Assembly (NCBI RefSeq): GCF_018618415.1
Contig: NZ_JACSMA010000003.1
Span: 248,001-312,000 of the forward strand
Direction of reading: 5' to 3'
DNA length: 64,000 nucleotides
From: Exiguobacterium sp. s146
GTDB taxonomy: Bacteria; Bacillota; Bacilli; Exiguobacteriales; Exiguobacteriaceae
This document shows positions 9,873-62,364 of the stretch, one piece after another. The notes below the pieces were generated by a model. It had not been told where the DNA came from, made no database searches, and saw only the letters and a program-made list of their open reading frames with translations. The translations under genes were made by a program, and so were the position numbers. Numbering within the stretch: position 1 is the first letter of the stretch; every line of letters starts with the position of its first letter.

Positions 9873-10424
9873 ATGCCTACGTTCTATCTCATCCGCCATT
9901 GCTCCGCCGCCGGCCAAGAGCCGGAGGCGCCGCTCACCGAAGCCGGCGAACAGCAGGCACTCGCACTCGCTGACTTCTTTCAAGATGTTCCCGTCGACCG
10001 CATCATCTCGAGCGACTATACGCGAGCCATCGCCTCGATTGCACCGCTCGCCGCATCCAAGCAGCTGACCATCGAGACAGAGCCGAAGTTGCGCGAGCGT
10101 ATCCTCTCGCTCGAACCGCGCGACGATTGGTTCGAGCTGCTCCGTCATTCGTTCACCGATGCCTCGTTTCGTCTGCCCGGTGCCGAGTCGGGGCAAGATG
10201 CGACGGACCGAATCCTAAGCGTCATCAATCATCTCAACGACGTAACCGGTGCGACCATCCTCGTGACGCATGGCAATCTGCTCGCGCTGCTGCTCCAACA
10301 TGTGGATAACTGCTTCGATTTCGACACGTGGCGCACACTCAGCAATCCCGACGTTTATCGCCTCGACATTGTGGATAACTCTTGGTCTGTGAAACGCGTC
10401 TGGACTGTCCCTGCCTGTGGATAA
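9873..10424 (+). CDS. Histidine phosphatase family protein (phosphoglycerate mutase-like)
   Basis: 183 aa. Catalytic motif LIRHCSAAG at residues 6-14 (phospho-His9), the SSDYTRAIASIAPL helix, the acid in EPKLRER, and the second His in ILVTHGNLLALLL. The substrate is unknown; many such enzymes are broad phosphatases. The ATG has AAGGAG 8 nt upstream. Odd feature: the 3' end holds perfect DnaA boxes that encode Val-Asp-Asn twice, and the stop codon lies inside a third box (TGT GGA TAA). Confidence 0.88.
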   Translation: MPTFYLIRHCSAAGQEPEAPLTEAGEQQALALADFFQDVPVDRIISSDYTRAIASIAPLAASKQLTIETEPKLRERILSLEPRDDWFELLRHSFTDASFRLPGAESGQDATDRILSVINHLNDVTGATILVTHGNLLALLLQHVDNCFDFDTWRTLSNPDVYRLDIVDNSWSVKRVWTVPACG

Positions 10425-10435
10425 CGTTATCCACA
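10301..10435. promoter_or_regulatory. DnaA-box cluster far from oriC
   Basis: Four perfect DnaA boxes in 135 bp: TGTGGATAA at 10301, 10370 and 10416, and TTATCCACA at 10427. The last two form the 20-bp palindrome TGTGGATAACGTTATCCACA (10416-10435), the same as one in oriC at 60672-60691. Likely a DnaA-binding or titration site; no promoter lies within it. Confidence 0.8.
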
Positions 10436-10438
10436 GAA

Positions 10439-10466
10439 AAAGCCGTCTCGCAAATGAGACGGCTTT
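10439..10466. terminator. Bidirectional terminator between the phosphatase gene and degV
   Basis: An 11-bp perfect stem (10439-10449 with 10456-10466) and a 6-nt loop, A-rich on the left and T-rich on the right, between convergent genes. Confidence 0.85.
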
Positions 10467-10470
10467 CGTT

Positions 10471-11334
10471 TTATTTTTCTACGAAGAACATGGAGATGGC
10501 TCCGAGCCCGACGTGCGTCCCGACCGAGACACCCATCTGCATGAGATAAATCTCACCTTTGAAGTCGGATTCAGCTTGAATCTTCAACTTCAAGTTCTCG
10601 GCAATCTTTTGATCCGATGTATAGCCGATGATGACGAAGTTCGTAATATCCTTGTCGCAGCGTTTGATGAACTCGTCCGTATAGTGCTTGAGCACTTTAC
10701 GCGTCCCCCGTTCTTTGGCGACGATGGCACCTTTTCCGTTCTTCATGCTCATAATCGGCTTGACCATCAACAGCTTCCCGATGATGGCACTCGCGTTCGA
10801 GATTCGTCCGCTCTTAATCAAGTGGTCCAAATCATCAACCGACAAGAAGTGTTTCACTTTCATCTTATACGTCTCGTTGAACTCGACGAGCTCTTCGAAC
10901 GTCGCCTCGGCTTCGCGCATCTGGGCACTCTTCATCAAGAGCCAACCGCTCCCGTGGCTCATTGAGCGTGAGTCGACGATATGAATCTTCACCGTCGAAT
11001 CCGGATGCGCCTCTTCGAAGTATTCTTTTCCGAGCACGGCCGATTGATACGATCCGCTCGTCCCGCTCGACATACAGATACATAAAATCTCATCATGTCC
11101 GCTCTCGACGGACTCTTCCATCAGTTTCATAAATGTTGCTGGGCTCGGCATCCCCGTCGTCGGGAATTCCGGTAGCGCTTCCAACATTCCGTAAAACTCA
11201 TCGGGCTGGATGTCGACGCGGTCCTCATACGATTTGTTGTCAATCGTGATGATCAGCGGCGCGACGCCGATGTCATATTTCGCTAAAATCTCATCAGATA
11301 AATCACAAGTTGAATCTGCCAATAATCTAATCAT
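10471..11334 (-). CDS. DegV family fatty-acid-binding protein
   Basis: 287 aa. The N-terminus IRLLADSTCDLSDEIL and the TTGMPSPATFMKLMEES, SGTSGSYQSA and VDSRSMSHGSG motifs are the DegV fold, in which Ser and Thr residues hold the carboxylate of a bound fatty acid. The family (FakB in staphylococci) presents exogenous fatty acids to the kinase FakA. ATG at 11334 has GGAGGG 5 nt upstream; a TTG four codons earlier overlaps that site. No fakA lies nearby, so the kinase would be elsewhere. Monocistronic. Confidence 0.9.
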   Translation of the reverse strand: MIRLLADSTCDLSDEILAKYDIGVAPLIITIDNKSYEDRVDIQPDEFYGMLEALPEFPTTGMPSPATFMKLMEESVESGHDEILCICMSSGTSGSYQSAVLGKEYFEEAHPDSTVKIHIVDSRSMSHGSGWLLMKSAQMREAEATFEELVEFNETYKMKVKHFLSVDDLDHLIKSGRISNASAIIGKLLMVKPIMSMKNGKGAIVAKERGTRKVLKHYTDEFIKRCDKDITNFVIIGYTSDQKIAENLKLKIQAESDFKGEIYLMQMGVSVGTHVGLGAISMFFVEK

Positions 11335-11423
11335 AGTACCCTCCAAAAATCGCTCCTGAGTGACGAGAATCGCCCTAGACCACTACGTCGATTCAGACGT
11401 CACGATAGGACTTCTCCATTGTA

Positions 11424-33880: not shown

Positions 33881-33951
33881 TTTTCCACAGTTTTTTTGGA
33901 GTTATCCATAGGGTTATCCACAGAGTTATCCACAAATCCACATGTTGATAA
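33881..33951. promoter_or_regulatory. DnaA-box cluster before rlmH
   Basis: TTTTCCACA at 33881, TTATCCATA at 33902, perfect TTATCCACA at 33914 and 33926, and the inverse of TTATCAACA at 33943. The three middle boxes are spaced exactly 12 bp apart in the same direction. A further variant (TGTGGATAG) lies at 34018 inside the next gene. Probable DnaA-binding site that could also regulate rlmH. Confidence 0.75.
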
Positions 33952-34113
33952 TCATTTTTTGCTTGACACAACATATGTTGCGTCGGCATCGCAGAACTCA
34001 CATGTCACTTGTCCACTTGTGGATAGTTCCTCGAGCAACGGGTATTCCCCCGTCTCGTCCACAATGATATCTAAAGCGATTTCAACATGTTCCTTGCATA
34101 CTTTTTTTTCCAC
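33952..34113 (-). CDS. CxxH/CxxC family protein, 53 aa
   Basis: GTG start with AAGGAGG 7 nt upstream; the protein begins MEKKVCKEHVEIALDIIVDE and ends with VTCEFCDADATYVVSSKK. The two pairs (CKEH and CEFC) make a small zinc site. Bacillales carry this little gene between htrA and rlmH, and the position here is the same. Function unknown. Its last bases overlap the DnaA-box cluster. Confidence 0.88.
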   Translation of the reverse strand: MEKKVCKEHVEIALDIIVDETGEYPLLEELSTSGQVTCEFCDADATYVVSSKK

Positions 34114-34130
34114 AATGTTTCCTCCTTAAA

Positions 34131-52774: not shown

Positions 52775-52777
52775 TTA

Positions 52778-52791
52778 GTTTCACGTGAAAC
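52778..52791. promoter_or_regulatory. parS site
   Basis: GTTTCACGTGAAAC, a 14-bp perfect palindrome; with flanking bases it fits the 16-bp parS TGTTTCACGTGAAACA at 15 positions. It lies between rsmG and noc, 8 bp beyond the rsmG stop. Loading site for ParB. Confidence 0.9.
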
Positions 52792-52799
52792 ACTATTGC

Positions 52800-58284: not shown

Positions 58285-58370
58285 CTGAAAGACCCCTTTC
58301 TGATTCGACGATGTTGACCACTACTTGGATTATTCCCAGATTTCGGTTCAATTCATCTCGAACGACAAAA

Positions 58371-58399
58371 AAGGCTGTGGATTGGTTATCCACAGCCTT
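58371..58399 (-). terminator. Terminator of yidC with embedded DnaA boxes
   Basis: A 12-bp perfect stem AAGGCTGTGGAT/ATCCACAGCCTT with a 5-nt loop, then T6 on the minus strand. The arms hold a perfect DnaA box (TTATCCACA, 58386-58394) and a near one (TGTGGATTG, 58376-58384). Confidence 0.85.
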
Positions 58400-58404
58400 A
58401 ACAT

Positions 58405-60269: not shown

Positions 60270-60720
60270 AAAGCCATTTTATCCACATATCCCGAAAGTT
60301 ATCCACACTTATATGTGAATAACTCCTCTTTTTTTCAACAATTTTATGAGTCCGATTTTCAATTTTTCATTTTCTTCTCTTAAAAAAATATTCTTCACAA
60401 TTCCTTCTTCCTCTTTTGTATATAACTTTTCTGTCTCTCTGTTTCCTCACTTCTAATTATCCACAACATATCCACAGTTTATCCACACTATACACAGCAT
60501 GTGGATAACTACCTGTGGATTCTTTTTGCGGTCTGTGGATAAATATCGAAAACCGTTGCCACGTCTATTTTATTTTGATAAACTGAATGTGCACAAACTT
60601 GTGGATGAACTTTTAGCAATTCCAAGATATACACAGGCTGTGGATAACTGTTATCCCCAACATCAACACCATGTGGATAACGTTATCCACAGTTTTTGTT
60701 CTCTGGGGATAACCCTAGTA
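60270..60720. other. oriC: oriC, upstream DnaA-box region (incA/incB-like)
   Basis: Nine perfect DnaA boxes: TTATCCACA at 60280, 60300, 60457, 60479 and 60683; TGTGGATAA at 60500, 60534, 60639 and 60672. Several one-mismatch boxes lie at 60315, 60468, 60514, 60600, 60651 and 60704. An AT-rich stretch occupies 60330-60456. Two boxes form the palindrome TGTGGATAACGTTATCCACA (60672-60691). The rest of the 60022-60793 gap holds the rpmH promoter and probably the dnaA promoter, not assigned with confidence. Confidence 0.92.
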
Positions 60721-60793
60721 TCTACTATAGAATAGTGTATGTGTATATCGTGTGAATAAGTTTCGCCAACATGTGAGTAAAGGAGGTCTTTCA

Positions 60794-62167
60794 TTGAAGA
60801 ATGCTCGCGAGATTTGGAGAAATGTTTTATCTCTGATTGAAGAAGAGGAACGAACACCAAAAGCCAGCTTTGATATGTGGTTGAAATCAACAGAAGGAAT
60901 TTCGTTGATGGGGACGACACTCGTCGTGTCCGCGCCAGCCAGTTTCATCGTGACTTGGCTTGAGCGTCAGTACTTGTCATTGTTACAAGATACGATTGAA
61001 GAAGTGACGAACAACAAACTTGAGATTCATTTCATCGAGGAATCACAAGCACACAAGTATGCACCTGCGGATGGATCGAAAGAGACGATTGCTGCCACAG
61101 AAATGAAAGAACAGCCACTTCCAGTACTTCCAAAAGAGGAAGGGAACCTTGGACAGTTGAATGACAAGTACATTTTTGAGACGTTTGTCATCGGGTCGGG
61201 GAACCGATTTGCTCACGCAGCCTCGCTCGCCGTGGCAGAAGCTCCGGCGCGTGCCTACAATCCGCTCTTCATTTATGGAGGAGTCGGGCTCGGCAAGACG
61301 CATTTGATGCATGCGATTGGTCATTATGTGAAAGGGCAGAAGCCTGGCGCACGTATCGCTTACGTATCATCTGAAAAGTTCACGAATGAGTTCATCAACT
61401 CGATTCGTGACAATAAGACCGAAGAATTCCGTAACCGCTATCGGAATATCGATGTTCTCTTAATTGATGACATTCAGTTCCTAGCTGGGAAAGAACAGAC
61501 ACAGGAAGAGTTTTTCCACACGTTCAATGCGCTTCATAACGATCAGAAACAGATTGTGATCTCAAGTGACCGACCGCCTAAAGAGATTCCGACGCTCGAA
61601 GATCGTCTTCGTTCGCGGTTCGAATGGGGTCTTATCACAGACATCACACCGCCTGACCTCGAAACGCGAATCGCCATCTTACGTAAGAAAGCGACGGCAG
61701 AAGGGCTTGATATCGCGAACGATGTCATGTTGTATATCGCCAATCAAATCGACACGAACATCCGTGAACTCGAAGGGGCATTGACGCGCGTCGTGGCCTA
61801 CGCCAAACTCGTCGGTCGTCCGATTGATCCGGATGTCGCTGCTGAAGCGTTGCACAACATCATGCCGGTCCAAGAAGCGAAGAAAATCGTCATTCGGGAC
61901 ATTCAAGAAATCGTGGGGCGTCACTTCAATATTGAAGTCGATGAACTGAAAGCGAAGAAACGGACGAAGACGCTCGCATTCCCACGTCAAATCGCGATGT
62001 ACCTATCGCGTGAGATGACGGAAAGCTCGCTTCCTAAAATCGGGGAAGAGTTCGGAGGACGCGATCACACGACCGTGATTCACGCCCATGAGAAAATTAG
62101 TACGCTGCTCAAACACGATCCGGAGATGCAAGAGACGATTCAGACGTTGAAGAAGGCATTGTTATAA
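60794..62167 (+). CDS. dnaA: Chromosomal replication initiator protein DnaA
   Basis: 457 aa. Domain I ([28 protein letters not shown]) binds helicase-loading partners; domain III AAA+ with Walker [10 protein letters not shown], Walker [13 protein letters not shown], arginine finger in LRSRFEWGL; domain IV with the DNA-binding [12 protein letters not shown] and [18 protein letters not shown] 60794 has AAAGGAGG 7 nt upstream; the GTG at 60752 has no site. Binds the boxes on both sides of its own gene and represses itself. Confidence 0.98.
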
Positions 62168-62182: not shown

Positions 62183-62364
62183 TGTGGATATCCTGTGGAT
62201 AAACCCACATAGTTATCCACAAGTTATTCACAGGCAGAATGGCTCAATACGAGTGGTTAAAGTGACTTATCCCCAGTATCCACAGCCCTTATTACTATTA
62301 TGACTTAAATAATACTATTATTATTAACTATATGACTCAGTTCACTTAGGAGGAATTATCCACA
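62183..62364. other. oriC: oriC, dnaA-dnaN intergenic part (incC-like) with unwinding element
   Basis: Perfect DnaA boxes at 62194 (TGTGGATAA), 62213 and 62356; variants at 62183, 62224, 62267 and 62276. After the last variant and GCCC comes the AT-rich stretch 62289-62336, starting TTATTACTATTA, whose lower strand reads as DnaA-trio repeats. The box at 62356-62364 reaches into the A of the dnaN start codon. Confidence 0.9.

Follow-up and report, generated by a model that had tools for sequence, protein, structure and literature searches.

The 3' end of a histidine phosphatase gene in Exiguobacterium sp. s146 carries four perfect DnaA boxes, a new oriC-proximal cluster of the Bacillus subtilis kind that, unusually, extends over coding sequence and a stop codon. 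Judged from its sequence and by analogy, this cluster is probably bound by DnaA and serves chiefly as a sink that helps to delay the next initiation of replication. In the window (the whole 64,000-nucleotide stretch analysed here), each perfect box is the 9-mer TTATCCACA, and the four fall within 135 bp (10301–10435), among the following features:

9873–10424, plus strand: histidine phosphatase superfamily (branch 1) gene, 183 aa (open reading frame; PF00300, E 3.7e-25)
10301–10309, minus strand: DnaA box 1, perfect, in coding sequence (His-Val-Asp-Asn)
10370–10378, minus strand: DnaA box 2, perfect, in coding sequence (Ile-Val-Asp-Asn)
10416–10424, minus strand: DnaA box 3, perfect, including the TAA stop; left palindrome half
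10427–10435, plus strand: DnaA box 4, perfect, entirely beyond the stop; right palindrome half
10416–10435: head-to-head box pair TGTGGATAACGTTATCCACA, 20 bp, formed by boxes 3 and 4; the same 20-mer occurs in oriC
10439–10466, plus strand: terminator between the convergent genes, distinct from the boxes
10471–11346, minus strand: DegV-family gene, convergent with the phosphatase gene (open reading frame; PF02645, E 3.2e-74)

A sequence-only reading had described four perfect 9-mers in 135 bp about 50 kb from oriC, two of them encoding Val-Asp-Asn, a third containing the stop codon and the last two forming a 20-bp palindrome that recurs in oriC at 60672–60691. All of these positions are correct: in the open reading frame 9873–10424, boxes 1 and 2 are read as ..T GTG GAT AA.. 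(Val-Asp-Asn) and the TAA stop is the end of box 3, the palindrome is found exactly at the oriC site, and 49.8 kb separate 10435 from the first box of oriC at 60279. No further box with at most two mismatches was found between 10200 and 10520. The phosphatase itself scores below the cut-off of every NCBIfam equivalog listed, and in the nearest named relatives, which are Exiguobacterium strains, the protein is 88–89% identical. As in B. subtilis DBCs, the cluster lies outside oriC on the origin-proximal chromosome, and its exact boxes are set closer together than chance allows; boxes 1 and 2 are inside and box 3 partly inside coding sequence, and we regard an intergenic position as usual for the B. 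subtilis clusters but not as part of their definition. The origin with which it is compared is laid out as follows:

60279–60759: oriC part 1, upstream of dnaA, with nine perfect boxes; palindrome at 60672–60691
60794–62167, plus strand: dnaA, 457 aa, with the DNA-binding domain (PF00308, PF08299, PF11638)
62183–62364: oriC part 2, the dnaA–dnaN interval, with three perfect boxes

The window holds 19 perfect boxes versus a mean of 0.34 in 100 shuffles, and the 2.85-Mb genome (G000, 22 contigs) holds 26 versus a single match to the reversed pattern. Across 19 genomes of the genus, this reversed control gave 98 matches (5.2 each), compared with 25 to 32 perfect boxes each. Nine of the 26 are upstream of dnaA, three between dnaA and dnaN, four at the phosphatase end, two at rlmH, three at C13:119446–119516 and five single, such that 21 are clustered at oriC or at most about 190 kb from it. 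Since single boxes occur near the chance level, it is the clusters that constitute the signal. Sets of at least four boxes within 135 bp have a per-genome expectation of about 1e-11 if the control rate is used and of 7e-9 if the full rate of 26 boxes is used, and a chance origin of the four-box cluster is rejected by the shuffles, the reversed pattern and these expectations together; the genome-wide count and clustering check thereby agree with the earlier judgement that four perfect boxes so close together are very unlikely to arise by chance.

The genus survey covered two clades, clade I (12 genomes: G000, G004–G009, G011, G012, G015, G016 and G018) and its sister clade (seven genomes: G001, G002, G003, G010, G013, G014 and G017). 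Comparison of the phosphatase 3' end across these relatives, which the sequence-only reading had proposed as a check, found the cluster in 12 of 12 genomes of its own clade, a result that leaves the earlier reading unrefuted, although none of the seven of the sister clade has it. Ten clade I genomes have all four boxes in identical register and two have three: G009 carries one substitution in box 1, and G018 an in-frame deletion of 69 bp, exactly the spacing of boxes 1 and 2, which leaves one box of the two; direct-repeat boxes seem, from this case, to cause deletions. In 10 of the 12 clade I genomes the cluster and oriC share a contig, and there they are 46–65 kb apart (hand subtraction). Five sister-clade genomes have the phosphatase gene, at 61–65% identity and boxless, and in G003 and G014 a close phosphatase was not found. 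Among related-gene loci of the sister genus (42–48% identity), 0 of 16 have a perfect box, a count that covers 16 of 19 genomes and leaves out G021, G024 and G029, whose phosphatases are more distant (33–36%); a single 1-mismatch box lies near the end of the phosphatase gene in sister-genus G028. At the one sister-genus locus checked for neighbours (G019 locus L137), degV, mqo and DUF2691 were not found beside the phosphatase, so orthology there rests on similarity and closeness to oriC.

Evolutionarily, the cluster-bearing genomes make up one side of a single branch in the DnaA gene tree (30 of 38 genomes), with moderate support (74/88). The likeliest and simplest history to be drawn from this distribution is one gain, on the stem of one Exiguobacterium clade, and an older gain followed by loss in the sister clade is a less likely alternative. 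Being absent from seven of 19 genus genomes, the cluster is dispensable, and since clustered perfect boxes outside oriC number 2–6 in cluster-less genomes versus 7–10 in clade I (hand tally), its lack is not made up elsewhere.

Other clusters around the origin differ in their apparent age. The nearest, on which the sequence-only reading of the phosphatase end is silent, is in the window:

33881–34114: second oriC-proximal DnaA-box cluster, upstream of rlmH; perfect boxes at 33914 and 33926 and five with one mismatch

The identity of RlmH is given by an NCBIfam match (E 5.3e-77), and the pair of boxes 12 bp apart is present in 19 of 19 genus genomes, with rlmH beside the 12-bp-spaced pair checked in the window, in G001, G002 and G003, and in sister-genus G019. 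We take the B. subtilis gene yydA to be rlmH; on this identity, the B. subtilis yydA region is at the same gene as the cluster neighbouring the phosphatase one, and one cluster position is therefore common to Exiguobacterium and B. subtilis. A strong DnaA region upstream of yydA is described in a section of PMC4447404. Farther out, about 190 kb from oriC, a third cluster of three boxes (L038:2947–3017, equal to G000:C13:119446–119516) is flanked by a gene for a MarR/HxlR-type regulator and a muramoyltetrapeptide-carboxypeptidase-like gene (ldcA, a weak NCBIfam match below cut-off), and its third box occupies codons 3–6 of the latter, which makes it another box placed within a coding sequence; two boxes of this cluster are present in G004, G005, G009 and G018 and one in G003. 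Sister-genus G019 has clusters at two other places, L134:2752–2872 and L135:3437–3489, about 104 and 127 kb from oriC. All clusters outside oriC are on the dnaA-upstream side in G005, G007, G010, G012 and G013, each with one large chromosome contig (hand reading). Thus one of the cluster positions is old, and other positions turn over.

Evidence that the phosphatase boxes are maintained as DNA comes from the columns of the clade I alignment. In the 12 genomes, 35 of 36 box columns are invariant versus 187 of 359 other columns of the region (Fisher, 8.6e-9), and the coding boxes taken alone have 17 of 18 invariant columns versus 149 of 302 (p 9e-5). Third bases are invariant in all 8 box positions and in 30 of 180 across the gene overall (p 2.5e-7, 12 genomes), and of the 98 codon columns in which a single degenerate amino acid is invariant, 15 also keep the same codon throughout, among them every one of the 7 testable codons of the boxes (p 4.7e-7); these p-values are too small, because related genomes and neighbouring columns were taken as independent. 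In the rest of the phosphatase gene, pairwise third-base identity has a mean of 0.68 and a minimum of 0.49 (10 genomes). The sister-clade proteins have LDP at the box 1 site and unrelated residues at the box 2 site and, because they differ at both boxes, the phosphatase has no need for Val-Asp-Asn. Taken together, these comparisons support the view that the 9-mers are under selection as DNA rather than arising as a side effect of the protein, and the earlier suggestion that the site has shaped a coding region is borne out by the frozen box columns and third bases and by related proteins that lack Val-Asp-Asn. We consider it very unlikely that the boxes are neutral relics or reflect the protein's own requirement for Val-Asp-Asn: shared ancestry, and the invariance of the V-D amino acids in clade I where present, are what such an account would predict, yet third positions are free across the gene and frozen in the boxes, these residues are lacking in the sister clade and the sister genus, and boxes 3 and 4 lie at and past the stop. 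Protein constraint was rejected on the third-base and codon tests in 12 genomes and on the absence of the residues in relatives.

The fate of the host gene points the same way. G005 has an in-frame TGA at codon 120 (possibly a sequencing error), upstream of all boxes, and retains all four boxes; its closest relative in the DnaA tree is G018. The TGA in G005 and the 69-bp deletion in G018 both suggest that this lineage can do without the phosphatase but not without the boxes.

The head-to-head pair is the part of the cluster with the closest tie to the origin. TGTGGATAACGTTATCCACA occurs in genome G000 at only two places, the phosphatase end and oriC, and is present at the phosphatase end in 12 of 12 clade I genomes; among 299 sampled Bacilli genomes, the exact 20-mer was found in 21, all of Exiguobacterium and the sister genus (2 of 118 genera). 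In oriC, each of the 19 genus genomes has a head-to-head pair whose two boxes are 2 bp apart. Seven of the 12 clade I genomes have CG as this oriC gap, and the remaining five, like all seven of the sister clade, have CT (AG if read from the opposite strand); the gap of the phosphatase copy is CG in 12 of 12. The gaps of the two copies thus change separately, which argues against strict matching of both. We think it unlikely, though worth weighing, that the pair is a copied oriC module which would assemble the same paired DnaA complex as its oriC counterpart and either compete with that counterpart as a decoy or bridge to it by handcuffing, with selection on the module outweighing the phosphatase, the gene of which would be decaying in G005 and G018.

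The palindrome common to the cluster and oriC could also be taken to mark a second origin or helicase-loading site, the least probable of all the readings weighed here. The phosphatase cluster has 51% GC versus 34% and 36% in the two parts of oriC, it has four boxes only, and an AT-rich unwinding stretch was not found next to them, apart from the tail of the terminator (minimum GC over 30 bp, 0.30 at 10452); a second origin was rejected on GC content. Nearer to oriC, a perfect box at 58386–58394 forms one arm of a terminator-like hairpin (58369–58403), and a box about 1.9 kb from the first oriC box, as at 58386, is present in 7 of 12 clade I genomes (hand reading). As for parS, the window contains no exact match to the consensus, and a single site with two mismatches lies at 52777–52792.

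Two further readings start from the position of the boxes between convergent genes. In one, bound DnaA would act as a roadblock and, jointly with the terminator, keep the converging phosphatase and degV transcripts apart, any role in replication control being incidental. The boxes are indeed exactly at the convergent ends and adjoin the terminator, but the sister clade keeps both the convergent genes and the terminator without boxes (5 of 5 loci, read by eye), box 1 is 115 bp before the stop where a roadblock would not need it, and the rlmH and ldcA clusters are at gene starts; we give this reading only a slight probability. In the other, the palindrome would matter as an RNA hairpin for 3'-end stability or termination, with boxes 1 and 2 as leftovers or chance matches. 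The palindrome folds on both strands into a 9–10 bp stem that adjoins the stem of the terminator, and taken jointly the two stems have z values of about −6.6 and −6.9. However, boxes 1 and 2 are non-palindromic and are as frozen as boxes 3 and 4, the same 20-mer is found in oriC, and the terminator alone suffices in the sister clade; moreover, no compensated changes that keep the stem and break the 9-mers were found in the 12 clade I genomes. This reading is highly doubtful, and the terminator or hairpin as the whole story was rejected, the terminator being separate and kept where the boxes are missing.

We attach equally little probability to control of phosphatase or degV transcription by DnaA at this site. 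In PMC4447404, several of the clusters in B. subtilis are described as lying in promoters under repression or activation by DnaA, but no promoter-like site was found in 10200–10700, and the two gene starts are about 430 and 910 bp from the boxes. The convergent 3' ends and the lack of a promoter-like site in this interval argue against a gene-regulatory role, and promoter control was rejected on the latter ground.

Mechanistically, the sink that we favour would work as follows. DnaA would bind the four boxes; the cluster, lying near oriC, would be copied soon after initiation, which would double the number of boxes; and the doubled cluster would take up free DnaA, which would contribute to delaying the next initiation. 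The cluster would have been built once, in the phosphatase 3' end and the gap to the convergent neighbour, and purifying selection on DNA letters would have held it since its gain. We infer the occupancy by DnaA, the sink effect and the size of that effect, and the sink would be modest, with four boxes versus 12 perfect ones at oriC. This genome also encodes YabA, a B. subtilis-type regulator that acts on DnaA in B. subtilis. According to passages in PMC5295017 and PMC13220808, deletion of six B. subtilis clusters outside oriC causes early initiation, which is partly relieved by one restored cluster; this effect in B. subtilis is modest, however, and its importance is questioned in a review. 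According to PMC4447404, DnaA bound a site within the B. subtilis rplB gene in vitro and not detectably in vivo, perhaps owing to transcription, and by analogy a similar loss of in vivo binding could apply to boxes 1 and 2. Among open-licence papers on Exiguobacterium DnaA boxes or oriC, we found nothing on these sites.

If this reading is correct, the phosphatase 3' end would be a clear example of protein-coding DNA into which a replication-control element has been carved, in a cluster with a gain dated to one clade, natural partial losses (G009 and G018) and a decaying host gene (G005 and G018). Together with the rlmH cluster and the clade- and genus-specific clusters, it could provide a comparative test of selection on near-origin DnaA titration in Firmicutes, where the weight of DnaA titration is disputed.

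Compared with known systems, the cluster most resembles the B. subtilis DBCs, chiefly gcp/ydiF, which likewise have several exact boxes outside oriC in an origin-proximal position, and gcp/ydiF too is between two convergent gene ends (downstream of both genes, with 10 sites and a Kd of 0.15 uM for ATP-DnaA, in the section of PMC4447404 that describes it). The eight strongest B. subtilis regions are named by their flanking genes, and are thus intergenic, whereas here two boxes are wholly and one partly coding; the present cluster also differs in being at another locus, in being restricted to a clade and in using the oriC palindrome. The sequence-only reading had proposed a titration or control site resembling either E. 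coli datA or the B. subtilis clusters, and it is the match to B. subtilis-type clusters near oriC that stands. The likeness to datA, also a box cluster outside oriC and thought to lower initiation, is weak: PMC5295017 describes datA as requiring IHF and stimulating the hydrolysis of DnaA-ATP, and B. subtilis is described in part of PMC13220808 as having neither IHF nor datA. A further E. coli parallel is the origin-proximal enrichment of boxes that titrate DnaA, as presented in part of PMC12371093; there hundreds of motifs are counted by looser patterns, compared with 26 perfect boxes here, and in both organisms the boxes crowd near oriC in an arrangement suited to titration.
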